Shown here one piece after another: positions 2,977 through 30,511 of a stretch of DNA of 37,886 nucleotides. The DNA is from Anaerolineae bacterium. Lineage in GTDB: Bacteria; Chloroflexota; Anaerolineae; Aggregatilineales; Phototrophicaceae. A model generated the notes under the pieces. The model made no database searches. It was not told where the DNA came from and was given only the letters and a program-made list of their open reading frames with translations. The stretch covers positions 1 to 37,886 of the forward strand of contig JAUZRW010000258.1 of NCBI GenBank assembly GCA_030950085.1, given 5' to 3'. The translations under genes and the position numbers were made by a program. How positions within the stretch are numbered: the first letter of the stretch is position 1; every line of letters begins with the position of its first letter.

Positions 2977-4188
2977 TTACCCACAAGCCCCTTGTTGCAG
3001 TGTATATGTGATAGAACGGCTATTATCGCCTTCGTTCGTTTCGACAACTTGACCGGACGGGTCAACTGAAATCACAACCTCATGTGTTTCGTCAAAAAAG
3101 ACATTGATAGTCAATGAAGCAACCACCACAAACGAGGCATTGGCATCTAATTCTGGGAAGCCGCCAATCGTTGAGCCGCTTGTTGAGCCGCTTGGTACGT
3201 GGCGGTCTGTGACAGTCAGCGTACCAGACGAGTTCGAGCGACCTGTCCCTGTATTTTGGACATTGATGAAAATATCGAATGATTCACCACAGGTCGGTTG
3301 CGGTGGGTCAAGCCGTAATCCGGTTACTTGCAGATTCGCGCTTGTAATCGGTGTAGCGGTTGCCGGTGGGGTAGGCGGTGGCGGTGGTTGAATCCGTTGT
3401 AAGCCACTTTCAGAACCGCTAAAGCGCACAATATTAGGCGCAATAAAACCACGCCGACCATTATTTAATTCGATGTAATACCAACCGGAATTAAAGGCAC
3501 TCACACCAATGACACGAGCCGATTCACCTGTTAACAATGACCCTATACGCGGATAAGAAACATCGTCGCCCTGTCGCACATTGGAATCAGTTAAAGCGGT
3601 GACAGTCGGTTCACCTGTGTTCAGCGAGGTGGGAGTCGCCGCAAGTGTCGGACGTGCGCTGCCACTGCCTCCACCTATTTGTGTTGGAGTGGGTTGCAAT
3701 GGAATACGGGTTGGTAAACTAACAAATTGCTGTGTCGGATTATTGAGTACCCGTATCGGGCTAACACGGAAAATTTGCGGTGCGCCACTGGTCACATTAA
3801 CAACCAAGCGCAATTCGTATAAACCATCACGGGCAGTTGTCGTATTCCATGTCCCAAGAATGCTATTTCGTACTGCTTGATTAGCGGGTAATGTTGCCGG
3901 AAACCATGGGCGGTTTGTATCCACTATTGGAGTCGCACCGGAATTAGTGTCTTGAAGTAGCAGTGGGCGATATTCGACAAAATAATTTGCCATATCGAGC
4001 GTATCCGCTGTCCCACGAATATCGACAGCACCGCCTATTACAAAGACAGGTGGTGGAAACGAAATCGCAATATCTGCATCTTCTGGTGGCGCAGCAAGCG
4101 GTTCAATATCTTGAGCCTGTGTGACAAATGCCCCAATCAATGCCAATAATAAGCCGAGCATGAGCCAATAACGCTGTTTCACTTTCAC
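2977..4188 (-). CDS. Secreted protein with SH3-like and CARDB domains
   Basis: A 403-residue exported protein. It starts at GTG (4188), fixed by a perfect AGGAGG at 4194-4199 five nt upstream. Residues 1-25 are a signal peptide (LMLGLLLALIGAFVTQAQ). Residues about 40-150 form an Ig-like beta domain. A Pro/Thr-rich linker follows, then a bacterial SH3 domain (about 200-255: NVRQGDDVSYPRIG, GWYYIEL, GRRGFIAP). A second Pro/Thr linker (PPPPPTPPATATP) leads to a CARDB-type domain (about 285-400: CGESFDIFINVQNTGTG, VDPSGQVVETNEGDN). This architecture is common in Chloroflexota surface proteins. A role in cell-wall or matrix binding is plausible, but no enzymatic domain is seen. Confidence 0.85.
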   Translation of the reverse strand: MKVKQRYWLMLGLLLALIGAFVTQAQDIEPLAAPPEDADIAISFPPPVFVIGGAVDIRGTADTLDMANYFVEYRPLLLQDTNSGATPIVDTNRPWFPATLPANQAVRNSILGTWNTTTARDGLYELRLVVNVTSGAPQIFRVSPIRVLNNPTQQFVSLPTRIPLQPTPTQIGGGSGSARPTLAATPTSLNTGEPTVTALTDSNVRQGDDVSYPRIGSLLTGESARVIGVSAFNSGWYYIELNNGRRGFIAPNIVRFSGSESGLQRIQPPPPPTPPATATPITSANLQVTGLRLDPPQPTCGESFDIFINVQNTGTGRSNSSGTLTVTDRHVPSGSTSGSTIGGFPELDANASFVVVASLTINVFFDETHEVVISVDPSGQVVETNEGDNSRSITYTLQQGACG

Positions 4189-13387: not shown

Positions 13388-15030
13388 TCAGTTTCGGCGA
13401 TTTGATAGCCTTCGTATTGTTTCCGTAGCACCTTCTTATCAAACTTGCCGACACTGGTTTTCGGTACTTCGGCAATAAATTCGATGTCATCTGGCAACTG
13501 CCACTTGGCAAATTCTTTACTGAGCAAGTCATAGATTCCAGCTTTCACTTGCGCTTTATCTGCGCCATCGCTCACGACAACACATGCCAAAGGACGTTCT
13601 TGCCATTTCGGATGTGGAATAGCAATCACAGCCGCTTCCATCACATCCTCATGCCCCATAATAGCATTTTCCAGTTCAACGGTACTAATCCACTCGCCAC
13701 CGGATTTCACGAGGTCTTTGGTACGGTCAACGATTTGCATATAGCCTTCAGAGTCAATAGATGAGACATCTCCTGTGCGAAACCAGCCATCTTCCGTGAA
13801 AGAATCGGCGCTGCGCTCGTCTTTATAGTAGTCAGCCGTGACCGCCGGACCGCGTACCTGCAATTCACCCATAGCCTCGCCATCCCATGGCAACTCTTCA
13901 CCATTAACATCCATAATTCGCATTTCGACACCGGGCGGCGTAATGCCTTGTTTCGCTCGCAAATCAAGTTTTGCTTCATCAGACCAATCTGCCATATGGC
14001 TCTTGATAGCCGATAGCGTGCCTACGGGAGTCATCTCTGTCATGCCCCATGCGTGGAGAATATCGACACCGAATTTTTCTTTGTATGCCTTAATCATAGA
14101 GCGCGGTGCTGCCGAACCACCAACAGGCATTCTTTGTAGACTGGAAATATTATAGTCACCTGCTTCAAGCACTTGTAACAAGCCTAACCAAAGTGTGGGT
14201 ACACCGGCTGTCACTGTGATTTTTTCATCTTGAATCAAGCCGGCGAGGTCAGCGCCTTGCATATGAGGACCCGGATAAATCAGTGTACAGCCGACCATCG
14301 TACCCGCATAAACTAGCCCCCAAGCCATAGCATGGAACATCGGCACAACGGGCATCAGGATATCGGGTTCTGCTAATCCCATCGCGTCGGTTAGAGAAAC
14401 CATCATCGTATGCAGATAAATTGCGCGGTGCGAATACAAGACCCCTTTGGGATGACCTGTTGTACCAGAGGTATAGCACATAGCTGCCGCCGCATTTTCA
14501 TCAATTTCAGGCCAACCATAATCTCCCGATTCCGCCGCCAGCAACTCTTCATAACTATGAACATTAGGCAGCGAGGTTTCCGGCAATTCGCCATGCGTCA
14601 TGACGATATAATGTTTGACGGTCTTTAATTGTGGCGCAAGTGGCTCAAGTAATTTGATGAGCGTGTCATCCACAAAAATCACCTTGTCTTCGGCATGATT
14701 AATGATGAAGATGAGTTGGTCAGCCGGAAGCCGCAAATTAAGAGTATGCACGACTGCACCCATACATGGCACACCAAAATACAATTCATGATGGCGATAG
14801 GTATTCCATGCGAATGTTCCCACGCGGTCTCCATCTTCAATGCCAAGTTTTTTGAGCGCCTGTGCCAATTGTCCACAGCGTCGATACGATTCAGCATACG
14901 TGACCTTGTGCATGGTATCGCCGAATTTTGTGCGGATTTCTTTGTTGGGGTAGAGTTGCATGGCACGCTTCATGATGGGCGTGAGAGTTAATTGATAATC
15001 CATCATCGTGCCAGATAAGCCGTTAATCAT
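13384..15030 (-). CDS. Acyl-CoA ligase (AMP-binding, fatty-acid CoA ligase-like)
   Basis: A 548-residue member of the ANL adenylating family, which activates a carboxylic acid as acyl-AMP and transfers it to CoA. ATG at 15030 is chosen because GGAG lies 10 nt upstream; an in-frame extension to 15114 has no such site. Motifs are the P-loop YTSGTTGHPKGVLYSHRA, GMTEMTP, DGWFRTGDV, GGEWIS, and the catalytic lysine near the end in SVGKFDKKVL. It resembles medium/long-chain fatty acyl-CoA synthetases; chain length cannot be told. No beta-oxidation genes are adjacent. A short frame and DUF433/DUF5615 follow on the same strand. Confidence 0.92.
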   Translation of the reverse strand: MINGLSGTMMDYQLTLTPIMKRAMQLYPNKEIRTKFGDTMHKVTYAESYRRCGQLAQALKKLGIEDGDRVGTFAWNTYRHHELYFGVPCMGAVVHTLNLRLPADQLIFIINHAEDKVIFVDDTLIKLLEPLAPQLKTVKHYIVMTHGELPETSLPNVHSYEELLAAESGDYGWPEIDENAAAAMCYTSGTTGHPKGVLYSHRAIYLHTMMVSLTDAMGLAEPDILMPVVPMFHAMAWGLVYAGTMVGCTLIYPGPHMQGADLAGLIQDEKITVTAGVPTLWLGLLQVLEAGDYNISSLQRMPVGGSAAPRSMIKAYKEKFGVDILHAWGMTEMTPVGTLSAIKSHMADWSDEAKLDLRAKQGITPPGVEMRIMDVNGEELPWDGEAMGELQVRGPAVTADYYKDERSADSFTEDGWFRTGDVSSIDSEGYMQIVDRTKDLVKSGGEWISTVELENAIMGHEDVMEAAVIAIPHPKWQERPLACVVVSDGADKAQVKAGIYDLLSKEFAKWQLPDDIEFIAEVPKTSVGKFDKKVLRKQYEGYQIAETE

Positions 15031-15253
15031 TTTGCTTTTTCTCCAAAATTTAGTTTCAAAACGGTCATTTGTGATGCTCCCATTGTAGCGGAAAATCTGT
15101 TTTTGCTCTAACATTTGCTGATTAAAAATAAAAAGTAGTGTAAAAATCGTATCTTTTCAGCTAAATTACGGTTTTTATTCATAATCTCTAGCACTATGCT
15201 CTGTGCTATCTACACTTCGGTAGAATCCAACGATATCATTATGGTAGAAAGGA

Positions 15254-16019
15254 ATGAGCCATCATTCATACAACTCAGGAATTAGCACAAGAGACTTACC
15301 TTGATTATCTTAGCACCATCAAATTTCGCTTAATTCAACCACAAACGCCTCTTTTGCCGATTGGATTTGACAGATTCAGTCAGCGTTTGAAGTTGGGGAC
15401 GTTGCTCGAATTGTTCAATGCGGATATCCCTTTTTCTCAGCAAACAACGAAGGACAAATTACAAGAATTATGCTATATCCCCAAAATGTCTACCTATGCC
15501 ACGGCAGCTATCATCAATGAGGCTGTGAGGCGTATAGCACCCGATACTGCTTTTGTGAATATTGGCGTATGGCATGGTTTCACATTTCTTTCGGGACTGA
15601 TTGGCAATGGTGATAAGCACTGTATTGGCATTGATAATTTCTCGGAGTATGGGGGACCAAAAGAGGCTTTCTACAAACGATTCGAGAAATACTCTAGTTC
15701 AAGTCATGATTTCTATGAAATGGATTACATCGACTACTTTGCGACTTTACATGAGACTCCTATTGGCTTCTTCATCTATGATGGCAATCATAGTTATGAA
15801 AATCAGTGCCAAGCCCTCACATTGGCTGAACCCTTTTTTGCTGATGACTGCATTATCATGGTTGATGATACCAATTATGAGGCTGTGCGGCGTGCGAATG
15901 AAGATTTTATTAAACACAGCCCGCATAATTATGAGATACTCTTTGACCAACCGACATACTGCAACCATCATCCGACTTTTTGGAATGGCGTAACCATTAT
16001 TCGTAGGGTTGCAGATTAA
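15254..16019 (+). CDS. Class I SAM-dependent methyltransferase-like protein, probable 5' frameshift
   Basis: The long frame (15258-16019) encodes a protein resembling Methyltransf_24-type enzymes: a nucleotide-binding strand and loop FVNIGVWHGFTFLSGL, GIDNFSEYGG, FFIYDGNHSY and DDCIIMVDDTN. The only start codon in this frame is TTG at 15354, with no ribosome site. AAAGGA followed by ATG (15254) lies upstream in another frame. Removing one C at 15259-15260 joins ATG to the long frame as MSIIHTTQELAQETYLDYL. I therefore infer a 1-nt insertion or assembly error. The whole protein would be about 255 residues. Substrate unknown. Confidence 0.65.
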
Positions 16020-16130: not shown

Positions 16131-18059
16131 ATGGCGAAACAATATCTGGTGATTGTCGAATCACCGGGCAAAATCAAGAAACTCAAGCACATTTTGGGCG
16201 CGGATTATGATGTGATTGCCAGCATGGGGCATGTCATGGATTTGCCGCCTAAGTCCTTCGGCATTGACCTTGAACAGATGGATGCTGACTATGTTGTCTT
16301 GAAAAAAGATGTTGCCAAAAAATTGCGAACTGCGGCAAAAAAAGAGTATCGTATCGTCTATCTAGCCTCAGACCCCGATAGAGAAGGCGAGGGAATTAGC
16401 CACCATGTTGCTAATTTGCTCAAGCGTGCCAATCCCAAACTGACTTTGCAACGGGTTACATTTGATGCGATTACCCCTTCTGCGGTACTAGCTGCTTTCA
16501 AAAAGCCGCGTGATTTAGACGAACAATTGGTCGCTGCCCAAGAAGCCCGTCGCCTCTTAGACCGTCTCGTCGGTTTTCCGGCATCGCGTTTTTTATGGCA
16601 ATTTGTCGATGGCAAAGGTTTATCGGCTGGGCGGGTGCAATCAGTCGCCTTGCGCTTAGTTGTCGAGCGCGATGATGCGATTCAGGCATTCGTACCGCAA
16701 GAATATTGGATAATCACAGGGGTATTCAAAGTCGAGAAAGGTGAATTTTCGGCTAAACTCACCCACTGGAAAGGCAAAAAGGCTAACATCAAAACCCGTG
16801 CTGAGGCAAATGTAATACTGGATGCCTTAAAAGATGTAGATTTTCGTATTGGCAGTGTGCAACCCAAACAACGAATCCGTAAAGCCCCGATTCCCTTCAC
16901 AACATCGACATTACAACAAGCCGCGAGTTCTAACCTCAAAATGTCGCCGGATGAAACGATGCGTCATGCCCAAAAGTTGTATGAAGAGGGCTATATTACG
17001 TATATGCGAACCGATAGTCCGGCTGTTTCGCCGGAAGGGGTGCAAATGGCAAAGGCGACGCTTCGCAGTCTTTACGATGAACGCTATATCGGCAAAGTGA
17101 TTTATAAGGCAAAGGGCAATGCACAAGAGGCACATGAGTGTATTCGTCCCACAGATACACAAGTTTCCCCGCGAGCCGTTAAAGCAGCACTAAACGAGAA
17201 AAATAAGCGTGCTGGCGATTTATACGACTTGATTTATCGACGTTTTCTGGCGAGTCAGATGTCTCCTGCTATATATGACGAAGTGCATGTTTCTGTTATC
17301 GGTGGCGAGGTGCTTTTCACTGCGAAAGGCTCACGTTTGGCATTCGATGGGTTTTTGCGGATGTACAATTTCAGCGAAGAAAAAGAGCGCAAATCGAAGA
17401 AACTATCTGATGATGAAGCAGAAAATGACAATACCAATAAGCAATTGCCACCTCTGACAGTAGGTGAATCCGCAGAAGCAATCAAAATTACACCTGAGCA
17501 ACATTTTACTAAACCACCGCTTCACTACTCAGAAGCGTTACTCGTTAAGGCATTAGAAAAACATGGAGTCGGGCGACCTTCTACCTATTCGCAGACTGTC
17601 GCCACCCTCAAAAAACGGCGCTATGTGACTGTGCAAAAACGCCGTCTCATCCCAACAGAGCGTGGCAAAGAAGTCCATCAGGTGCTATCGACCAAGCTAT
17701 CGGGCTTGTTTGAAGTTCCCTTCACCGCAGAGATGGAATCGGCATTGGATGAAATTGCAGCCGGCAAACGCGAAAGCAAAGCCTATCTGAAAACGTTTTG
17801 GTCAAAGGTGAGTCCGCTATTTGGCGAAAAAGTGATTCAAGGTGTCTTAAAGCCGCGTTCAAGCAAAAAAGGCAAATCTACCAAGCCCCGTAAAAGTCGC
17901 AAAACATCGAAAAAAGTATCTGCTGACATACCCATTTCGCCAGAACTCGGCGCATGTCCGACGTGTGGCAAGGCATTGGTCAAGCGCAAGAGCAAACACG
18001 GTGCATTCATCGGCTGTAGTGGCTTCCCGAAATGCCGTTTTACGAAGGCTATTTCGTGA
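16131..18059 (+). CDS. topA: DNA topoisomerase I
   Basis: A 642-residue type IA topoisomerase that relaxes negative supercoils. ATG at 16131 follows AGGA by 8 nt; the 10-residue upstream extension is not conserved-looking. The Toprim domain has IVESPGKIKKL and ASDPDREGEGI. The catalytic tyrosine is Y291 in GYITYMRTDS, and HECIRPTD and HGVGRPSTYS follow. The C-terminal end carries a Lys/Ser-rich linker and one four-cysteine zinc finger (CPTCGKALV, then CSGFPKC); E. coli has three such fingers. It is monocistronic, with a repeat in its leader and another repeat downstream. Confidence 0.96.
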   Translation: MAKQYLVIVESPGKIKKLKHILGADYDVIASMGHVMDLPPKSFGIDLEQMDADYVVLKKDVAKKLRTAAKKEYRIVYLASDPDREGEGISHHVANLLKRANPKLTLQRVTFDAITPSAVLAAFKKPRDLDEQLVAAQEARRLLDRLVGFPASRFLWQFVDGKGLSAGRVQSVALRLVVERDDAIQAFVPQEYWIITGVFKVEKGEFSAKLTHWKGKKANIKTRAEANVILDALKDVDFRIGSVQPKQRIRKAPIPFTTSTLQQAASSNLKMSPDETMRHAQKLYEEGYITYMRTDSPAVSPEGVQMAKATLRSLYDERYIGKVIYKAKGNAQEAHECIRPTDTQVSPRAVKAALNEKNKRAGDLYDLIYRRFLASQMSPAIYDEVHVSVIGGEVLFTAKGSRLAFDGFLRMYNFSEEKERKSKKLSDDEAENDNTNKQLPPLTVGESAEAIKITPEQHFTKPPLHYSEALLVKALEKHGVGRPSTYSQTVATLKKRRYVTVQKRRLIPTERGKEVHQVLSTKLSGLFEVPFTAEMESALDEIAAGKRESKAYLKTFWSKVSPLFGEKVIQGVLKPRSSKKGKSTKPRKSRKTSKKVSADIPISPELGACPTCGKALVKRKSKHGAFIGCSGFPKCRFTKAIS

Positions 18060-18109
18060 CAATGCTTCTGCTTTTTTGGATGTGCTGTGTAATAAAAGCC
18101 AAAAACGAT

Positions 18110-18143
18110 TGAACCGCCAAGACGCAAAAACGCCAAGAAAAAT
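18110..18143. repeat. AACCGCCAAGACGC-type dispersed repeat
   Basis: GAACCGCCAAGACGC, followed by AAAAACGCCAAGAAAAA, matches the start of the composite repeat at about 22003-22030 (GAACCGCCAAAACGCCAAG). It directly precedes the left direct repeat of the HNH cassette. Confidence 0.55.
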
Positions 18144-18173
18144 GGCGTGTTCTCGAATGGCAATAGACGATAA
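18144..18173. repeat. Left 30-nt direct repeat of the HNH cassette
   Basis: GGCGTGTTCTCGAATG, three variable bases, then ATAGACGATAA. It is repeated in the same orientation at 18941-18970 with 27 of 30 identical. Confidence 0.75.
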
Positions 18174-18212
18174 AAAACACAAGGCACGCTGGCGATTGGT
18201 GCGCGGCGCTAA

Positions 18213-18227
18213 AATAACAATGTTATT
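18213..18227. repeat. Small inverted repeat at the 3' end of the HNH gene
   Basis: AATAAC-AAT-GTTATT. It resembles the core of the perfect palindrome at 25221-25240 (GATAACAATTGTTATC). Confidence 0.35.
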
Positions 18228-18630
18228 CCCAAAGGTTAGATTCTATTAAAATGTGGCGGATCTCAACATATTCAATTTCATTCATTTTTAGGATAAGAAC
18301 CGTTACCCGTCCTTCTGGTGTTTTGCCTATAATTGTGCTTGCGTCAATTTCAAAATGGCTATGCCATTCCTGAGCGCGAGGATTGTAGAAGGGAACCAAA
18401 TCGCCTGTTTCAGTATCATAAGAGCCTAAATCGCTACCCTTAGCATTATTGCAATTCGCACATGTCCATGCAAGATTACTCTTTTTATCTGAACCCCCAT
18501 GCTTAATCGAAAGGATATGGTCAACTTGGAAAGGTTGAAAACTAAATATTTCAGGCAATTGACAATATTCACAACGTTCATTGGCACGCTTGCGGATTTC
18601 GCTACGTACTTTGTTTGAAATACGACTCAT
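18223..18630 (-). CDS. HNH endonuclease
   Basis: A 135-residue HNH nuclease of the McrA/5-methylcytosine-specific-like class. The metal and zinc sites are clear: CEYCQ (C20, C23), the catalytic VDHILSIKHGG (D37, H38), N52 in KSNLAWTC, and CANCNNAKG (C57, C60). The C-terminal half holds strands such as HSHFEIDASTIIGKTPEGRV. ATG at 18630 shares a base with the stop of the 89-residue gene (TAATG), so the two are translationally coupled. Such stand-alone HNH pairs are frequent in Chloroflexota and cyanobacteria; whether they are defence nucleases or homing-type elements is not settled. Confidence 0.9.
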   Translation of the reverse strand: MSRISNKVRSEIRKRANERCEYCQLPEIFSFQPFQVDHILSIKHGGSDKKSNLAWTCANCNNAKGSDLGSYDTETGDLVPFYNPRAQEWHSHFEIDASTIIGKTPEGRVTVLILKMNEIEYVEIRHILIESNLWE

Positions 18631-18899
18631 TATTTTTGCTTTAGTGCAACATAAGCTCTCGTTTTAAGTAATGTCATGAGCCGATTAAATGCTAATATCT
18701 CATCCAATTCAGCATTTTCATCAGGCGTTAACGTATCGGCTTTGTTTTTTTCAGTGAGTATATGCAAGCGTTCTTGCTGCTCCTTTGGTGCTTGGAATGC
18801 CAAGATATCAGCAGGGCTTACTTTCTGCGCCAAGTATTCAAGAAATTGATTATACGCGGTAGACGTTTTTATCATGATACCATCTACTTCAATTTTCAT
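18630..18899 (-). CDS. Small protein paired with the HNH endonuclease
   Basis: 89 residues, starting at ATG 18899. Mostly helical by composition: an N-terminal strand (MKIEVDGIMIK), then helices with SPADILAFQAPKEQQERL and LTPDENAELDEILAFNRLM. The C-terminus (LLKTRAYVALKQK) is basic. It has no catalytic motif. The overlapping TAATG with the HNH gene points to a fixed stoichiometry, so an inhibitor, DNA-targeting partner or chaperone of the nuclease is plausible. I do not recognise a named domain with certainty. Confidence 0.75.
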   Translation of the reverse strand: MKIEVDGIMIKTSTAYNQFLEYLAQKVSPADILAFQAPKEQQERLHILTEKNKADTLTPDENAELDEILAFNRLMTLLKTRAYVALKQK

Positions 18900-18940
18900 T
18901 CAATGATACTTGAATTATAGCACAAGAAAACTTATGAACA

Positions 18941-18970
18941 GGCGTGTTCTCGAATGCTGATAGACGATAA
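18941..18970. repeat. Right 30-nt direct repeat of the HNH cassette
   Basis: Second copy of the repeat at 18144-18173, same orientation; GGCGTGTTCTCGAATG and ATAGACGATAA are identical and only three middle bases differ. It lies just upstream of the HNH-pair start and just after the Sua5 gene end. Confidence 0.75.
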
Positions 18971-18982
18971 CAATCATTTTCA

Positions 18983-20041
18983 TCATCCTACCTCCATAAT
19001 ATGACCTTCGGCAGCTCGCATGAGACGGTCATAAAGGGCGAGTCCGAGTCCTGTTTCTTGGGGCGCACGGGCGAGAATAACATCGACTTTGCTATTATCG
19101 AGCGCACGCATCCCAGCAAATAACGCGGCTGCCATGGCTTGCGATGTTTTGCCGATGAGGACAATCTGCACATCCAATTTCGCAAATTCCAGTGCTTCAT
19201 TATCTTGTGCCAATATACCGACCTGTTTGCCCTGTTTAATATCGGTTGCAGCTTCGTGACGCATCGCCTCATAAACTGCTTTTTCTTCGCCTTTGAAAAC
19301 TTTTACTGTTGCATGGGGTGAATAGTGCTTGAGCAATGTGCCGGGTGCCGCGGCGATATCATCTTCTGTGATATGCTGCGGACGAAAGGCGACTGTTGGC
19401 AAATGTTCGCGCAAAGCCTCTAATGTGACTCCGCCGGGGCGTAAGACTGTCGGTATCTCTGAGGTTAAATCAATAATCGTCGATTCGACACCAATTTGTG
19501 TACTACCGCCATCAAGAATGACATCCACATGACCATCTAAATCAGCTAAAACATGATAAGCCGTTGTCGGGCTGGGTCTACTAAAAAGATTGGAACTCGG
19601 CGCGGCAATTGGTACGCCTGCTTTGTGAATCAACCGTTGGGCAATCAAGTGTGCAGGCAAACGTACAGCAACAGTATCGCGTCCGGCAGTGACATTGGCA
19701 GGAATTTCAGGGCGCTTTTTCAGAATGAACGTCAATGCACCGGGCCAGAAAGCATCCGCTAATTTTTGCGTAATTGACGGAATCTCAATGGCGACTGTTT
19801 CTAACTGCGCGACAGTCTCAATATGCACAATCAAGGGGTCATTAGAAGGGCGTTGCTTTGCCTCAAAAATATGGGCAACGGCGGCTTCGCTCAGTGCATT
19901 CGCCCCTAAGCCGTAAACAGTCTCAGTCGGGAAAGCGACTAAGCCGCCATCGACAATCACTTGTCCGGCAAGTGCCATCACCTGTGGGTCGGGGTTTTGA
20001 GGGTCAACTGTGACGCTATATGTTTCAGCTTGATAAGGCAT
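18983..20041 (-). CDS. tsaC: L-threonylcarbamoyladenylate synthase (Sua5 type)
   Basis: A 352-residue Sua5/YrdC protein that makes threonylcarbamoyl-AMP from Thr, bicarbonate and ATP for the t6A37 modification of ANN-decoding tRNAs. The YrdC domain covers about 15-205, with GLVAFPTETVYGLGANA, KQRPSNDPLIVHI, WPGALTFIL, VAVRLPAH and PIAAPSSNLFSRPSPT. The Sua5 C-terminal domain follows a linker containing APGTLLKHYSPH and includes VGILAQDNEAL. ATG 20041 is preferred over the longer frame to 20095, since the family begins near here. The ribosome site is weak. Confidence 0.93.
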   Translation of the reverse strand: MPYQAETYSVTVDPQNPDPQVMALAGQVIVDGGLVAFPTETVYGLGANALSEAAVAHIFEAKQRPSNDPLIVHIETVAQLETVAIEIPSITQKLADAFWPGALTFILKKRPEIPANVTAGRDTVAVRLPAHLIAQRLIHKAGVPIAAPSSNLFSRPSPTTAYHVLADLDGHVDVILDGGSTQIGVESTIIDLTSEIPTVLRPGGVTLEALREHLPTVAFRPQHITEDDIAAAPGTLLKHYSPHATVKVFKGEEKAVYEAMRHEAATDIKQGKQVGILAQDNEALEFAKLDVQIVLIGKTSQAMAAALFAGMRALDNSKVDVILARAPQETGLGLALYDRLMRAAEGHIMEVG

Positions 20042-21939: not shown

Positions 21940-22086
21940 TTCTAAAAACATAGCGAAAATTACTTGTTTAACTTGAGTTTTGGATAAACGTACAAATACG
22001 GAAAATGAACCGCCAAAACGCCAAGAATTTTATACAAAATTCAGTCAATCACAGAGACACTCTTTATCACTATTTGGGGTCACAAC

Positions 22087-22125: not shown

Positions 22126-22276
22126 CGATTCACCGAAATCTTACTCTGCGCCTCTCTGCGTTACGCATTTTCTAAAAACTTCTCGGACTCCGCATTTTTC
22201 AATATCCATAAACTATTTGCACAAAAGCACTTCACATCTTATAATAAGAACGTATGTTCAAATAGCGAGGTGTATG

Positions 22277-22762
22277 ATGGCAAACAGTAAACGGGCAGAT
22301 GGTTATATTCATCTTTTAGGCGTTAACGGACATGTGATTCAACGGCAATTGGATGGATTAAGCCACGACGATACATTGTTACAACCGGATATGCGCGGCA
22401 ATTGTGCTAATTGGATTCTAGGGCATATCAATGTGAGCCGTAGTTCTTTGATGGAACGTTTAGGGCTTGAGCCGGTGTGGGGCGAGACAGCGGCTGCTAT
22501 CTATGCCCACGATACGCCGCCCATTACAGATGCGACTTGTCCACATTTTCCATTAGAGCAACTCATGGCTGATTTTACGGCAGCAGGTGAACAAATCATC
22601 GCTCGTCTGGAAACTATCAGCGACGAAGAATTAGATGCCGATATCAGTGAAACAAACATATTGGCTGGGTCTGTCTCTTTCACGATTTGGCATGAAGCGT
22701 ATCATGTCGGACAGTTTGAGTATCTGCGACAGTTAACAGGTGTCGATGATAAAGTAATTTAG
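22277..22762 (+). CDS. DinB-superfamily protein
   Basis: A 161-residue four-helix-bundle protein of the DinB/YfiT type. GAGG at 22267-22270 lies 6 nt before ATG 22277 (another ATG at 22274 is too close). Three histidines typical of the metal site are H50 in WILGHINVSR and H139 and H143 in IWHEAYHVGQ. DinB-like proteins are thiol S-transferases or unknown hydrolases. The following FEYLRQLTG is the usual C-terminal helix. It is separate from the ArsR remnant downstream. The upstream in-frame extension lies in repeat DNA and is not used. Confidence 0.85.
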   Translation: MANSKRADGYIHLLGVNGHVIQRQLDGLSHDDTLLQPDMRGNCANWILGHINVSRSSLMERLGLEPVWGETAAAIYAHDTPPITDATCPHFPLEQLMADFTAAGEQIIARLETISDEELDADISETNILAGSVSFTIWHEAYHVGQFEYLRQLTGVDDKVI

Positions 22763-26458: not shown

Positions 26459-27401
26459 TACACAAGCACCGGAAACCGCGCAACAGCAGGCTGCCGAAAA
26501 TAACCCTTTCCCTAGTGCGGATGCCCGTTGGTGGGAAGGGGGACAAAAGGTGCAGTCTGCGGCGGAATTTGAGGCGCGTAAATTGCAAACAAACCTCGAT
26601 AAAATGTCGCGCCAGCGTTCAGGGCGACGTTCGACGACTCGTACCGAGCGCAAACGGGGACGTTATGTACGGGCTGTTCCGGCAGGCGACAAAACCGATG
26701 ATATCGCCTTTGATGCCACATTACGCGCTGCGGCTGTCTATCAAAAAGCCAGAGTCAAGCAAAAAGAAGAAAGTGGCATGGCGTATGCCCTACGAAAAAG
26801 TGACCTCCAGCGCAAAATCCGTGTGAAAAAAGCCGCCAACCTCATTTTATTTGCTGTGGATGCCTCATGGAGTATGGCGGTTTCCGAGCGTATGCAAGCG
26901 ACAAAGAGTGCCATTATGTCGCTGCTGACCGATGCCTATCAACGCCGTGACCGCGTGGGGCTGGTCGTTTTCCAGAAAGACCGTGCCTCGCTGATATTGC
27001 CACCCACAAATAGCGTCATGCTGGCGAAAGAGGCGCTGCAAGATATTCCCGTCGGTGGGAAAACACCACTTTCTGCCGGATTGTTCCTGAGCTACGATAC
27101 GATTAAGCGCGAAATGCTGCATAATCCCGATGTGATGCCGATGATGATTTTGCTCACCGATGGGGCAGGCAATGTCAGCATGAGTGAGGGACTCTCGCCA
27201 CAAGAAGAATCACACCATATCGCGCACCTGATTAAAGAGGCTGAGATTCGCACTGTGACGATTAATATGGAGCATGTCGCCTTTGACCAAGGATTGGCAA
27301 AACGTTTAGCCGACCAATTGGGTGGTCCCTGCTATACCCTCGCCCAGATTCGTGCTGATAATCTGCTGGAAACGGTTCGCAACGAAATCGAAAAGGCGTA
27401 A
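26424..27401 (+). CDS. ChlD/BchD-type VWA domain of the chelatase (-1 frame part)
   Basis: Open in the -1 frame from the A-run to TAA at 27401. It begins with an acidic/Gln-rich linker (SDEVSDEQSSTQAPE), then NPFPSADARWWEGG, basic KRGRYVRAVP and ALRKSDLQRKIRVKK, then a VWA domain with an intact MIDAS: DASWSM, T in GGKTPLSAG, D in LLTDGAGN. This is the integrin-I-like half of D-type chelatase subunits. It has no ATG; the first possible internal start is GTG at 26550, with GGGGGA upstream, which would drop the conserved linker. I prefer synthesis by frameshift fusion to the AAA+ part; a real or sequencing deletion in the homopolymer is the alternative. Confidence 0.85.
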   Translation, partial: KKSDEVSDEQSSTQAPETAQQQAAENNPFPSADARWWEGGQKVQSAAEFEARKLQTNLDKMSRQRSGRRSTTRTERKRGRYVRAVPAGDKTDDIAFDATLRAAAVYQKARVKQKEESGMAYALRKSDLQRKIRVKKAANLILFAVDASWSMAVSERMQATKSAIMSLLTDAYQRRDRVGLVVFQKDRASLILPPTNSVMLAKEALQDIPVGGKTPLSAGLFLSYDTIKREMLHNPDVMPMMILLTDGAGNVSMSEGLSPQEESHHIAHLIKEAEIRTVTINMEHVAFDQGLAKRLADQLGGPCYTLAQIRADNLLETVRNEIEKA

Positions 27402-27423
27402 TCGTTCGTAGATTGTTCTCCTC

Positions 27424-27458
27424 GTGTATACTGAAAGCATGGTTTAGTAACTGTGTTT
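27424..27458. repeat. Left 35-nt repeat bounding the PRTase/DprA cassette
   Basis: GTGTATACTGAAAGC, R, TGGT, Y, T, RR, T, R, ACTG, Y, GTTT. It matches 29338-29372 at 29 of 35 positions in the same orientation; all six differences are transitions. Confidence 0.75.
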
Positions 27459-27485
27459 GCAAATTTAGAAAAAATGTTCTATAAT
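27457..27485 (+). promoter_or_regulatory. Promoter of the PRTase/DprA cassette
   Basis: TTGCAA (27457-27462), a 17-nt spacer, perfect TATAAT (27480-27485), 20 nt before ATG 27506. It gives a short leader of about 14 nt with only a weak ribosome site (GTGGA). Confidence 0.75.
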
Positions 27486-27505
27486 TATGGTAAGTGGAAT
27501 GAATT

Positions 27506-28306
27506 ATGCCCAAAAGATTCAAACTTCAAGACTATAATGTTGAATACATAGTTGCTAAACAACAATCATGTGTGTTGATAACAGGCGAAAGAATTTATTA
27601 CAATATTCTCTCTGATGCGTATCCAAATCGCTGTAATTCCATCTTTGATGACCGAAATCACAAATATGATTGGGGAGTTTATATTAACAGTAGCGAAGAT
27701 GAAGCGCAGGAAATTGACAACTTACTAAAAATGTTTACTTATGCGGTATGTCTACAAGATACACTACATCAAACATTTGCATTAGATTATTATTATGAGC
27801 CTTATTGGGATAAGCCAGAGGGTGGACTAACTTTAGCCGGAAGTCTAGTTCATCAATGCAAGTATTATCCTATTGATACGCCTGAACATTCTCAGCAGCT
27901 TGAAAAGTTGATTGATTACTTTTCTCGGTTTTTTACTAAACACCCATCATATGGACAATCAGATTATCTGGTAGGTGTTCCGTACTATGGTGAGAAAAGT
28001 TTCGATTTGCCAACTACCTTAGCAACACGGCTCTGCGATAAGTTCAGTATAATCAATGGTGAACAATATGTTGCTAAAATACGCGAAACAAAATCAATGA
28101 AAAGTTTAGAAGCGCCAGAAGAAAAGACAAAAAATATTAAGGGGGCATTTTCAGTTTCCAATAATGCTCCATTTTCTGGTAAAAGGATTACAATTCTTGA
28201 TGATGTATATCGTTCAGGTACGACAATTCTTGAATTAGCAAGCATTCTGCAAAAGGCAGGTGCAATAGTTCAAGGACTTGTAGCAACCAAGACAATTCGA
28301 GACTAA
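27506..28306 (+). CDS. ComF-like phosphoribosyltransferase-fold protein with a novel N-terminal domain
   Basis: 266 residues. The C-terminal half (about 118-266) is a type I PRTase fold: YLVGVPYYGEKSFDLPT (substrate side), VAKIRETKSMKSL, NIKGAFSV, and the PRPP loop ITILDDVYRSGTT (228-240) followed by LQKAGAIVQGLVATKT. The order is that of ComF-type competence proteins. The N-terminal 110 residues (SCVLITGERIYYNIL, YDWGVYINSSEDEAQEIDNLL) lack the four-Cys zinc finger of ComF and match nothing I know. Twelve nt separate it from the DprA-like gene, which has its own ribosome site, so they form an operon. Codon and base use are more AT-rich than the chelatase gene before it, consistent with acquisition. 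Likely a nucleotide- or PRPP-binding enzyme or sensor. Confidence 0.8.
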   Translation: MPKRFKLQDYNVEYIVAKQQSCVLITGERIYYNILSDAYPNRCNSIFDDRNHKYDWGVYINSSEDEAQEIDNLLKMFTYAVCLQDTLHQTFALDYYYEPYWDKPEGGLTLAGSLVHQCKYYPIDTPEHSQQLEKLIDYFSRFFTKHPSYGQSDYLVGVPYYGEKSFDLPTTLATRLCDKFSIINGEQYVAKIRETKSMKSLEAPEEKTKNIKGAFSVSNNAPFSGKRITILDDVYRSGTTILELASILQKAGAIVQGLVATKTIRD

Positions 28307-28317
28307 GGTGAGCTATC

Positions 28318-29319
28318 ATGGCATTACCAAACTTAATGGACATCAAAGGCATCGGCAAAAAACGATACGCAATCATAAATACAAAAATGACTGAAAATAA
28401 TTGGTCATTGAATGATGTTTATGCTATGTCGCCAGATACTATAAAAAAGATATTCAAATTGCCCATTAATGTTGCCAAAGCCATATCCGAAACAGGGAAA
28501 AAGGCTGTTGCGGAGCGTAAACAATCTAAACCTGACAAAGTGGTTCAGCCAAAAACAACAACTGATAAACTATCTGAAAAAGACACACAAGTATTTGACA
28601 AAAAAGATAGTAATTATCCGAATAGGTTGAAGCAAATATTAGGTGATGCTGCGCCTGAAAAACTCTATATATGGGGCAATTTAGAACTGATAGATAAACC
28701 GTCGATTGGTTTTTGTGGTTCACGGAATGTCAGTGATAAGGGATTGGCTGTTACGGCGGATGTCGCACAGCAAATTGCTGAACTCGGCTGGGTTGTGGTA
28801 AGTGGTCATGCACGGGGAGTCGATGCAACAGCGCATCGTGTGGCACTTGAAAATAATGCTGGAACAATTATTGTGCTTCCACAGGGCATTAATGGCTTTA
28901 AGTTGCGTTCTGAATTGCGGCGATACGCTAAAAAAGAGAACTTGCTCATTATTTCCGAATTTCCGTTGAATGCACGCTGGAATGTCGGTTATGCGATGCA
29001 GCGCAATCGCACAATTATTGGTCTTTCTGATGCGATGGTACTGGTTGAATCGCGTACAAAGGGCGGCACATTTAATGCTGGCAAAACAGCCTTGCAGTAT
29101 CAACACCCATTATTTGTGGTGACATTTGATGATAAAAAACCAAGCAATGCGGGTAACGACTATTTCATTCAACGCGGCGCAACTCGCCTTATGAAAAGTC
29201 AGACTACAGGGCGTGCTAACATCACGACTTTAAGGCAACAGGTAGAATCGCAGCAAGCACGGGATAATTTACCATCTGCAAAACCTACACAAATGACCCT
29301 GTTACTAGAATCAGAGTAA
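28318..29319 (+). CDS. DprA/Smf-like SLOG-domain protein with N-terminal HhH
   Basis: 333 residues. An N-terminal helix-hairpin-helix-like part (6-60: LMDIKGIGKKRY, KLPINVAKAI) is followed by a charged linker (62-92) and a DprA-type Rossmann domain: YPNRLKQIL, GFCGSRNVSDKG (134-136 GSR), VVVSGHARGVDATAHR (162-169), IIVLPQGING, IISEFPLNA, QRNRTIIGLSDAMVLVES and GGTFNAGKTAL. The winged-helix C-terminus of competence DprA is missing; the tail is short (PTQMTLLLE). Departures from DprA consensus (SGHARGVD for SGLARGID; TKGGTFNAG for SGSLxTA) suggest a divergent paralogue. DprA binds ssDNA and loads RecA; SLOG domains in conflict systems bind or cleave nucleotide signals. The pairing with a ComF-like gene in a repeat-bounded cassette suggests a defence or DNA-uptake role. 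Confidence 0.85.
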   Translation: MALPNLMDIKGIGKKRYAIINTKMTENNWSLNDVYAMSPDTIKKIFKLPINVAKAISETGKKAVAERKQSKPDKVVQPKTTTDKLSEKDTQVFDKKDSNYPNRLKQILGDAAPEKLYIWGNLELIDKPSIGFCGSRNVSDKGLAVTADVAQQIAELGWVVVSGHARGVDATAHRVALENNAGTIIVLPQGINGFKLRSELRRYAKKENLLIISEFPLNARWNVGYAMQRNRTIIGLSDAMVLVESRTKGGTFNAGKTALQYQHPLFVVTFDDKKPSNAGNDYFIQRGATRLMKSQTTGRANITTLRQQVESQQARDNLPSAKPTQMTLLLESE

Positions 29320-29337
29320 ATTCAGAAACAAGTCGTG

Positions 29338-29372
29338 GTGTATACTGAAAGCGTGGTCTGATGACTGCGTTT
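29338..29372. repeat. Right 35-nt repeat bounding the PRTase/DprA cassette
   Basis: Second copy of 27424-27458, starting 18 nt after the DprA-like stop codon. It is followed by a short open frame (29380-29481) that the left copy does not have. Confidence 0.75.
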
Positions 29373-29379
29373 TTCGTTT

Positions 29380-29481
29380 ATGAAGGCAAATATCGTGCGC
29401 GATTCGCTAAAACTCGAAGATTTACCAGCTTATGTTGTAGAGAATACACAACAGCTTACCATCCTCACGAGAAAATTGTGA
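29380..29481 (+). CDS. Possible 33-residue peptide or gene remnant
   Basis: ATG at 29380, directly after the right repeat, opens a 33-codon frame containing VRDSLKLEDLPAYVVENTQQ. It has no strong ribosome site (TTTTTCGTTT upstream) and no known family. It may be a fragment of a gene that originally followed the chelatase operon. Confidence 0.25.
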   Translation: MKANIVRDSLKLEDLPAYVVENTQQLTILTRKL

Positions 29482-29557
29482 TAGGTGACATCTAACAAAG
29501 AATGACATTTTGCGCTAAGATAGGGGTAAAATGAATTCAGATTGAGGAGCGTGAACG

Positions 29558-29896
29558 ATGTTTCGGCGCAAACCAAAAACACGGATGCAACGGGCGCGTG
29601 AGGACTTCGTGAAAATACGACAACAGGCTGACGATGCTCGTAAAGATATTGTGCAACAATTGAATCGCAGTGCCAAGCACCTTCGCGGTGATGTTGGGCA
29701 TCTGTTTGATGGCGATGACCGTGCAAGTCGATTAGCGAAAGAACTTGAACATATGGCAGAAGACCTTGAAAAACGTACTGAAAAGCGCGTGGGTGACGTA
29801 GCCGATACTGCGAGTAGTAATGTGTGGTTTACCGTTCTTGTCGCCTTTGCCATCGGTGTACTGGTCGGAATCATGTTCAAAATCATGAAACGATAA
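29558..29896 (+). CDS. Small coiled-coil protein with a C-terminal membrane helix
   Basis: 112 residues; GAGGAG lies 8 nt before the ATG. A long charged helical part (MQRAREDFVKIRQQADDARK, SRLAKELEHMAEDLEKRTEKR) is followed by a single hydrophobic segment (about 90-107: VWFTVLVAFAIGVLVGIMF) and a short basic end. The layout resembles ElaB/YqjD/DUF883-type or YtxH-type tail-anchored proteins, which associate with ribosomes or membranes in stress. The exact family is unproven. Confidence 0.75.
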   Translation: MFRRKPKTRMQRAREDFVKIRQQADDARKDIVQQLNRSAKHLRGDVGHLFDGDDRASRLAKELEHMAEDLEKRTEKRVGDVADTASSNVWFTVLVAFAIGVLVGIMFKIMKR

Positions 29897-29903
29897 TTTG
29901 AGT

Positions 29904-30236
29904 ATGATTAAATTTGTGGTGATGTTTCGACAACCAGATGATAGGGGCGATTTTGAGAATGCCTATAACGACTTTCTGGCGCTTGTCGAACGGATGCCAG
30001 ATATCAAGCGCCGACAGGTGGTGCATGTCCTCGGCAGTCCGCAAGGTGATGCGCCTTATCATCGCTTGCTAGAAATCTACTTTGACACAGAGGAGCAACT
30101 AAAAGCCTCGTTGATGTCTGGTGCTGGGCAAGAAGCTGGCAATGAGTTAGGGCGCTTCAAAGAAGGCAGTTTTGATGTGCAATTTGCGGAAGTTTACGAA
30201 GAAGAAGGCGGTAGCACAGTCACGGAAACAACTTAA
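29904..30236 (+). CDS. EthD-family ferredoxin-like protein
   Basis: 110 residues from ATG 29904, seven nt after the stop of the preceding gene, so probably cotranscribed. The dimeric alpha-beta barrel pattern is clear: MIKFVVMFRQPDD, FENAYNDFLALVERMP, VVHVLGSPQGDAPYHRLLEIYFD, EEQLKASLMSGAGQEAGNEL. This matches EthD domain proteins (first seen beside ether-degrading P450s), whose function is mostly unknown. The tail is Glu/Thr-rich. It converges with the 74-residue gene, overlapping by 4 nt at the stops. Confidence 0.85.
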   Translation: MIKFVVMFRQPDDRGDFENAYNDFLALVERMPDIKRRQVVHVLGSPQGDAPYHRLLEIYFDTEEQLKASLMSGAGQEAGNELGRFKEGSFDVQFAEVYEEEGGSTVTETT

Positions 30237-30457
30237 TCAGTATCTGTCGTGTCGCCTTCGCGCATCGCCTTGAGTTCTGCTTCTAGCGCCTCACGTTTAG
30301 CGGCACTCGCCTTACGCCCAGCAACGAGTGCCTCTTGATAGTGTTCGCGCAAGGTTTGACGTATTTGGCTATCTTCTGATGCGAAGAATAACATCGCTAG
30401 TAGTCCGATGATTCCACCGATGAATGTCCCCAAAAACCATGTCAAAATTTTTCGCAT
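30233..30457 (-). CDS. Small membrane-anchored coiled-coil protein
   Basis: 74 residues with ATG at 30457 and AGGAAA 9 nt upstream. One N-terminal membrane segment (about 4-26: ILTWFLGTFIGGIIGLLAMLFF) is followed by a charged helix with heptad-like pattern (QTLREHYQEALVAGRKASAA, REALEAELKAMREG). It resembles YtxH-like proteins. Its stop codon overlaps that of the EthD gene. Confidence 0.7.
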   Translation of the reverse strand: MRKILTWFLGTFIGGIIGLLAMLFFASEDSQIRQTLREHYQEALVAGRKASAAKREALEAELKAMREGDTTDTD

Positions 30458-30511
30458 TGCTATATTTTCCTATTTTCAAATAGTACACGACCAAAAAAGT
30501 TTTTGAGGTTT

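Follow-up and report, generated by a model that had tools for sequence, protein, structure and literature searches.

A stretch of 37,886 nucleotides from an Anaerolineae bacterium (Chloroflexota, Aggregatilineales; GenBank assembly GCA_030950085.1, contig JAUZRW010000258.1, positions 1 to 37,886 of the forward strand), here called the window, carries a gene for a ComF-like phosphoribosyltransferase (PRTase) followed closely by a gene for a DprA-type SLOG protein. The question raised by this locus is what a pair with two competence names does in a genome that has a separate comF and dprA. A first-pass annotation, made from the letters alone, had proposed an accessory, possibly anti-phage pair, with the PRTase acting on a nucleotide and the DprA-like protein on DNA or a ligand. 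This proposal is matched by ShosTA, PsyrTA/RqlHI and the DprA-PRTase pair of phage P2, and by sequence comparison the window pair almost certainly belongs to this PRTase–DprA group of toxin–antitoxin and anti-phage systems. The type of system itself is already known; the window pair is a third architecture of it, with a short N-domain in place of a helicase or HAD domain.

The gene pair

The two open reading frames (ORFs) were confirmed as annotated, both on the + strand with ATG starts, 266 and 333 amino acids long and 11 nt apart. They are called toxin and antitoxin below, after the corresponding genes of the known systems. Their features are as follows.

27506-28306, + strand: toxin gene (ShosT/PsyrT-type PRTase), with a ββαββα N-domain at residues 1-75 and a ComF-type PRTase domain at residues ~76-266 (PADLOC, AlphaFold2, fold search)
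28193-28225, + strand: phosphoribosyl pyrophosphate (PRPP) loop ILDDVYRSGTT (homolog alignment)
28318-29319, + strand: antitoxin gene (ShosA/PsyrA-type DprA) (PADLOC, Pfam, DprA tree)
28318-28524, + strand: N-terminal helical part of the antitoxin, residues 1-69 (four helices in the model; sequence)
28573-29262, + strand: SLOG/Rossmann DprA core, residues ~86-315 (model alignments)

The toxin is matched by the PADLOC profiles PsyrT (2e-15) and ShosT (6.7e-5); the PsyrT profile has 689 positions, of which the 266-residue toxin matches 540-683 only. The Pfam match to Pribosyltran is weak (8e-4, below the curated cut-off), and the NCBIfam matches to GntX (1.6e-11) and ComF (6e-9) are both far below their cut-offs. 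No Pfam match to a helicase domain or to a HAD domain was obtained. The PRPP loop lies in gene 1 as first annotated, and D232, D233 and S237 within it are invariant across 12 homologs, G238 nearly so. The zinc finger of ComF, reported missing by the first-pass annotation, is indeed absent by eye when the toxin is compared with the genome's own comF product.

The AlphaFold2 model of the toxin (predicted local distance difference test, pLDDT, 92.5) has the N-domain as a separate unit. Residues 75-266 align with the solved ShosT chain 8zvc (Z 12.9, root-mean-square deviation (rmsd) 3.4, 175 aligned), and residues 79-264 with Helicobacter pylori ComF 7p0h (Z 15.1, rmsd 2.7, 161 aligned). No solved relative of the N-domain was found in the fold search with the full-length model, in which the rows lie mainly over residues 96-266, so that this result is no evidence of novelty. 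Nine positions of the N-domain are invariant among five same-family copies; in seven distant homologs (from Actinomycetota, Desulfuromusa and a viral contig) the region before the PRTase domain is about as long, with no shared invariant residue. The N-domain may be common to homologs beyond the family.

The antitoxin is a strong DprA by Pfam (PF02481, 1.1e-47), in agreement with the first annotation of gene 2, and is matched by PADLOC as PsyrA (1.4e-59) and ShosA (3.5e-47); the TIGR00732 match (1.5e-42) is under the equivalog cut-off. The order of parts in its model is a helical N-terminal part, a disordered linker (residues 69-83), the DprA core and a disordered tail (residues 320-333). The N-terminal part has no profile match, and by eye we take it to be helix-hairpin-helix-like. 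The model aligns with Streptococcus pneumoniae DprA 3uqz (Z 27.0, rmsd 2.5, 213 aligned), and its residues 88-297 with ShosA 8zva (Z 23.4, rmsd 2.1, 207 aligned). By eye the antitoxin is shorter at the C-terminus than the product of the genome's own dprA; the missing part is presumably the winged helix, the absence of which had also been noted at first pass.

Relationship to known systems

Fold alone does not decide membership, because competence ComF and DprA outscore ShosT and ShosA in the alignments above. Membership was decided by the profiles together with a DprA tree of 39 rows (25 of 32 PRTase-linked DprAs, 9 of the 16 canonical ones and 5 of the 11 paralogs). In this tree the window antitoxin and ten other partners of short toxins form a group (support 96/89). 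Together with seven PsyrA rows (90/81) this group makes up a set of 18 rows (100/100) that is separate from the ShosA rows, the nine canonical and the five paralogous DprAs. The DprA class of the window is thus sister to PsyrA, and because of this tree the pair is placed as a third class, nearer PsyrTA. A PsyrTA-type row (G015) and Vasanti lie near the canonical DprAs; G388, the P2 ShosA and Vasanti are long-branched, and the place of the P2 ShosA is unsure.

With PsyrTA (SyrTA)/RqlHI the window pair shares the gene order, toxin first and DprA antitoxin second, as well as the best profile scores for both proteins and the nearest group in the DprA tree. It differs in that PsyrT has a RecQ-type helicase fused to the PRTase (in the Nostoc copy), whereas the window toxin has none, and in that RqlI-type antitoxins have a C-terminal helix-turn-helix (HTH), which the window antitoxin lacks. 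With ShosTA (Escherichia coli APEC O1; P2-phage hotspot) it shares a PRTase toxin and a DprA antitoxin, and the solved chains 8zvb, 8zvc and 8zvd (ShosT) and 8zva (ShosA) match the window models by fold; solved ShosT and ShosA are matched by profile as well. ShosT differs by its HAD-like N-domain (strong in the Pf-phage copy; weak in the P2 copy, under the Pfam cut-off), the P2 copy has the antitoxin gene first, and the ShosA rows are a group of their own in the tree, the window standing beside PsyrA. A split form of the HAD-PRTase/DprA layout was seen on a Segatella plasmid (L140), where PRTase, DprA and HAD are three separate neighbouring genes.

The antitoxins of shosTA, syrTA and rqlHI are described as DprA homologs, and the DprA-PRTase pair of phage P2 as protecting against T7 and λ (PMC9122126). 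In RqlHI, toxicity was located in the PRTase domain of RqlH, and RqlH activates SOS (PMC4670107). ShosT is reported to act both as PRTase and as pyrophosphatase and to upset purine metabolism, and ShosA to bind DNA (PMC12593503, citing Pu et al. 2025); the same review of 2025 states that ShosA 'likely recruits additional factors'.

C-terminal tail of the antitoxin

The tail of the antitoxin (residues 320-333, positions 29275-29316) has a pLDDT under 50 and contains one further feature.

29290-29304, + strand: clamp-binding-like motif QMTLL in the C-terminal tail (model disorder, motif statistics)

The consensus given for bacterial clamp-binding peptides is QL(S/D)LF at the C-terminus (PMC9690074), to which QMTLL is a loose match. 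The tails of other partners vary before the motif and end, among other forms, in QLALN, QLLLP, QLPLL, QPSLF, QPGLF, QPTLL, QLSLL, QLGLF or QLTLP. In ShosA, the solved chain 9vzo has a QLSLL tail, its last residues being TQQLSLLGDE; chain 8zva stops 14 residues before the natural C-terminus and is therefore without it.

A strict pattern, Q[LMPQ]xL[FLPWNI] within the last 15 residues, is present in 17 of the 32 PRTase-linked DprAs and in none of 27 further DprAs from the genomes sampled (Fisher 3.6e-6). After clustering at 60% identity it is present in 13 of 26 clusters of linked DprAs. Its frequency in background ORFs is 2/319, and shuffled tails gave a mean of 0.36, with 3 as the maximum over 2000 rounds. 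The idea of a clamp motif arose from six loci; among 26 seen later, 12 have the strict motif. The linked set omits L136, L137 and L139 for want of a demonstrated PRTase partner, L080 for want of a DprA match, the truncated L071 (its other half, L129, was used) and L084-L087 (identical with loci L042, L069, L070 and L071). Linkage of L096, L132, L134 and L135 was taken from annotated neighbours; a PRPP-loop-like pattern is present in L096, L132 and L134 and not in the annotated PRTase of L135. The 27 controls are DprAs that have a locus and are not known to be linked, and no PRTase homolog was found in their examined flanks; G414:C7, G361:C166 and G015:C106 are without a locus. On these counts from sequence, the antitoxin has a somewhat better than even chance of docking on the β sliding clamp via its tail.

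Several observations count against docking. The strict pattern was written once the tails had been seen, and a looser Q..L pattern separates the sets less sharply (19/32 linked versus 5/27 other DprAs). The strict motif is missing in 15 of the 32 linked DprAs, among them the same-family copies G401 and, strictly, G475, the Pf-phage ShosA, Vasanti, Agarilytica and others, and two PsyrAs with HTH ends, one from Acinetobacter and one from an E. coli plasmid. That the C-terminal motif is instead a different short signal, for docking or for degradation, or that the hydrophobic end arose by chance, is a serious possibility at somewhat below an even chance: the tails QKNLL, QAELPI and QPGLW are only loose matches, and three motif-less linked DprAs end in GDLFS, KGGLL and KDSLF, with no Q at the right place. 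Such an explanation has to account for QLSLL, QLGLF and QPSLF lying near the published consensus (PMC9690074), for the difference between the linked clusters and the 27 other DprAs, and for the occurrence of the motif in all three main linked groups of the DprA tree and also after the HTH end of the Nostoc PsyrA.

Docking on the clamp would give the pair a likeness to two other toxin–antitoxin systems. We know of no sequence relation of the window pair to SocAB or RipAB. SocAB of Caulobacter and RipAB of the pneumococcus are both tied to the sliding clamp (PMC9690074; PMC12795458). In both, the toxin is the partner that acts on the clamp; here the clamp-like motif is borne by the antitoxin. 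A clamp-like tail was also seen in a 276-residue ORF beside the PRTase–DprA pair of another genome (L078, G002), which ends in QLGLFDDLHGES.

Distribution

The host genome (G000) comprises 5.09 Mb in 266 contigs and is 97% complete. It has a separate comF (contig C193, 230 residues, two CxxC pairs), a separate longer dprA (contig C47, 362 residues, with an extra C-terminal part) and a further, shorter DprA paralog (G000:C208:42258-42854, L083, 280 residues) that adjoins a MerR-like gene. The genes of the window are therefore not the only copies, a check named by the first-pass annotation, and the PRTase–DprA pair is accessory. DprA paralogs of the C208 type also occur in relatives, where five sampled rows form a clade of their own in the DprA tree, and the strict clamp-like tail is present in 0/11 of them.

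Of 154 genomes searched within the order, eight gave a match. Seven have toxin homologs (G000, G408, G469, G463, G502, G475 and G401), and the eighth (G425) has a short ComF-like match. A dprA-like gene adjoins the toxin gene in 6/6 testable carriers, which answers the co-occurrence check of the first pass; G401 was left out of this count, its two genes being at the ends of two contigs. The pair lies directly behind AAA/VWA genes in three genera (window, G408 and G502) and at other sites in G469 and G463, giving three or more loci overall. Where the region downstream of the VWA gene was examined in 20 relatives (three of them with at most 3.1 kb visible), the pair was present only in G408. In a sample of Actinomycetota 1/396 genomes had a match, the query's own. 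Viral contigs gave no relative for the query toxin alone or for A1, and one locus for query A2; tblastn of the toxin against phages gave four partial matches.

Promoter and SOS-type box

The operon start sequence is TTTAGAAAAAATGTTCTATAAT, and two features were located in the promoter region.

27456-27485, + strand: promoter TTTGCA, 18 nt, TATAAT, with a perfect -10 at 27480-27485 and 10/12 matches (promoter scan)
27468-27479, + strand: SOS-type box GAAAAAATGTTC, one mismatch to GAAC-N4-GTTC, touching the -10 (family promoters, lexA/recA boxes)

The single strong promoter of the first-pass annotation stands as far as its sequence is concerned; its score alone is little proof, since the region has 10 such promoter-like sites versus 6.7 +/- 2.4 in shuffles. 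The box is present in all six family copies with a visible promoter (window, G408, G469, G463, G502 and G401), 29-40 nt before the toxin start, with no mismatch to GAAC-N4-GTTC in two copies and one in four; the promoter of G475 is outside its contig and was left out. An upper-bound null for the box is 13/461 ORFs, true cases and duplicates included.

LexA-type repressors were found in 9/9 family genomes searched (in G000 on contig C105). A perfect GAAC-N4-GTTC stands 37-115 nt before the first lexA start in all seven genomes in which that start was read, G000 included, and 22-29 nt beyond the perfect box lies another that has one mismatch; the lexA starts of G469 and G463 were missed by the search motif. 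A box with no more than one mismatch precedes recA in five of eight genomes (G000, G408, G463, G404 and G469). In these five, a search with the exact recA-type pattern returned 26 rows, at 21 distinct sites, versus 6 rows for the reversed pattern. The 21 sites include five before recA, one in each genome, three before NurA-domain and three before SLT-domain genes and one before the G408 toxin; Pfam confirmed two NurA proteins and one SLT protein. Within the window, a DinB-superfamily gene (ATG at 22277) has the SOS-type box GAACGTATGTTC at 22248-22259, flanked by a TATAAT-like element and the ATG; the start listed for this ORF, a TTG at 21980, probably lies too far upstream. Because the lexA promoters bear perfect boxes, our estimate of SOS (LexA) control of the operon was raised from probable to highly probable, as judged from the promoter sequences.

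Evidence to be set against SOS control includes the mismatch in the window box itself and the lack of a box at the same position in loci outside the family (0/6). The recA genes of G413, G475 and G502 have only two-mismatch boxes, the pattern search was run on five genomes picked after recA boxes had been read, and nine of the 21 sites lie before other genes or no ORF.

A box in common with lexA and recA would also be expected of the chief competing explanation, an SOS-regulated repair or recombination module without a toxin role, in which the DprA-like protein would load RecA at damaged forks and the PRTase would sense or salvage nucleotides. The conserved DprA core, strongly similar to single-stranded-DNA-binding DprAs, a tail that fits a fork-associated repair protein and neighbours that form no island are in keeping with such a module. 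It is nevertheless unlikely, given the sporadic distribution of the pair (7/154 genomes of the order, the short ComF-like match aside, at three or more loci) and given that profiles and tree place the pair closest to toxin–antitoxin and defence pairs.

It is less likely still that the box serves another regulator than LexA, for example the antitoxin itself. The NurA- and SLT-domain genes at the pattern sites are no textbook SOS genes, which together with the window mismatch would suit another regulator; the perfect boxes before lexA, the recA boxes and the box at the DinB-superfamily gene speak for LexA.

The recA-type box occurs at NurA-domain-like genes (L162, L163 and L171) in three genomes and at SLT-transglycosylase-like genes (L169, L170 and L173) in three, which suggests an unusual SOS regulon in this lineage. 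Three recA-type boxes lie within 12 kb on G404:C26 (L165, L168 and L172), where the following ORF is phage-like by eye; this stretch is perhaps a prophage under SOS-type control.

Proposed function

An accessory competence pair serving DNA uptake, which the family names ComF and DprA, the shared PRTase and SLOG folds and the best fold matches would suggest, is rejected as very improbable, in view of the separate comF and dprA of the genome, a window without com genes, the loss by eye of both zinc finger and winged helix, and profiles and a tree that point to PsyrA/ShosA. A toxin–antitoxin or defence function of the pair, predicted from its relatives, is probable. Likely, with rather less assurance, is the fuller reading of the pair as a module of the ShosTA/PsyrTA group with a third architecture that acts as an abortive, probably anti-phage switch.

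Such a switch could work as follows. LexA would keep the operon low via the box on the -10. The antitoxin would bind DNA via its DprA core and the clamp via its C-terminal QMTLL tail, and at normal forks it would keep the PRTase inactive, or repair active. Disruption of the fork by phage or damage would displace, titrate or outpace the antitoxin; the freed PRTase would then use PRPP and unbalance the purine pool, leading to DNA damage. The damage would raise the SOS response and with it the operon product, and the cell would stop before phage release.

Two observations weigh against this reading: no defence island was seen around the cassette (PADLOC covered 12 of the window's 22 ORFs of at least 220 residues), and the toxin is rare, with a match at E <= 1e-8 in 12/400 genomes of the phylum, a count that takes in helicase fusions and ComF-sized frames. 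Support for the reading is by homology.

A wider proposal is put forward tentatively, at just short of an even chance: that PRTase–DprA antitoxins from E. coli ShosA to the window copy dock on the clamp and guard the state of the fork, that phage takeover or stalled replication frees the PRTase, that a LexA loop makes the response self-amplifying in this lineage, and that the short N-domain marks a third, helicase-free and HAD-free class. The proposal bears on how PRTase–DprA systems sense infection and why a DprA should serve as antitoxin. A clamp-docking tail common to E. coli ShosA and distant copies, if true, would name one recruited factor and the site of action, and an SOS-type box would link the toxin to DNA damage, the reported effect of ShosT and RqlH. 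The clamp-like tail of ShosA-type antitoxins and the lexA/recA-type promoter box therefore most deserve the attention of specialists. Neither the box nor the tail of such pairs is mentioned in the literature searched, the coverage of which stops short of the ShosTA paper of Pu et al. 2025.

Genomic neighbourhood

Further features lie on either side of the cassette.

26550-27401, + strand: VWA-domain gene of a Mg-chelatase-like AAA/VWA pair (Pfam; position of the cassette in three genera)
27419-27458, + strand: direct repeat, left copy, 40 nt, imperfect (flank comparison)
29333-29372, + strand: direct repeat, right copy, 40 nt, imperfect (flank comparison)

The two repeat copies match at 32 of 40 positions (80%), the best of 200 shuffles reaching at most 25, and a degenerate 35-nt pattern of the repeat (up to 3 mismatches) occurs at only these two places in the genome. 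The repeat was not found around the cassette copy of G408, nor behind the VWA gene of 20 relatives, where only pieces of 11-12 nt occur. It may mark the insertion event of the cassette. The repeat, the SOS-type box in the promoter and the names ShosTA and PsyrTA are additions to the first-pass annotation.

The cassette is AT-rich as first described (G+C content 39-41% versus ~46% typical). Two other 1-kb bins (15001-16000 and 18001-19000) are equally low, and the composition is for this reason weak evidence of foreign origin. A decayed pair was considered and rejected: neither gene is broken in the window or in G408, between which the toxins are 49% and the antitoxins 53% identical.

No competence genes were found in the Pfam scan of all 22 window ORFs of at least 220 residues, in line with the first annotation. 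Besides the AAA/VWA genes, the neighbours code for a DtxR-type regulator, NUDIX, ankyrin, DinB-superfamily and rhodanese/metallo-β-lactamase proteins, a histidine kinase, a Ser/Thr kinase, topoisomerase I and Sua5; the ORF at 2977-4188 has no Pfam match at 1e-10. The PADLOC matches to kinase, subtilase, helicase and topoisomerase-like regions of the window were judged general domain matches. A place in a defence island was rejected in view of these neighbours, and no co-location with defence genes was seen near the cassette with Pfam on all 22 of these ORFs and PADLOC on 12 of them. The interval 26500-30500 is without Rfam matches. In two related genomes (L150 in G404, L151 in G469) the recA frames are 729 and 608 residues long, and the RecA match is split by an in-frame insert that is intein-like by eye.

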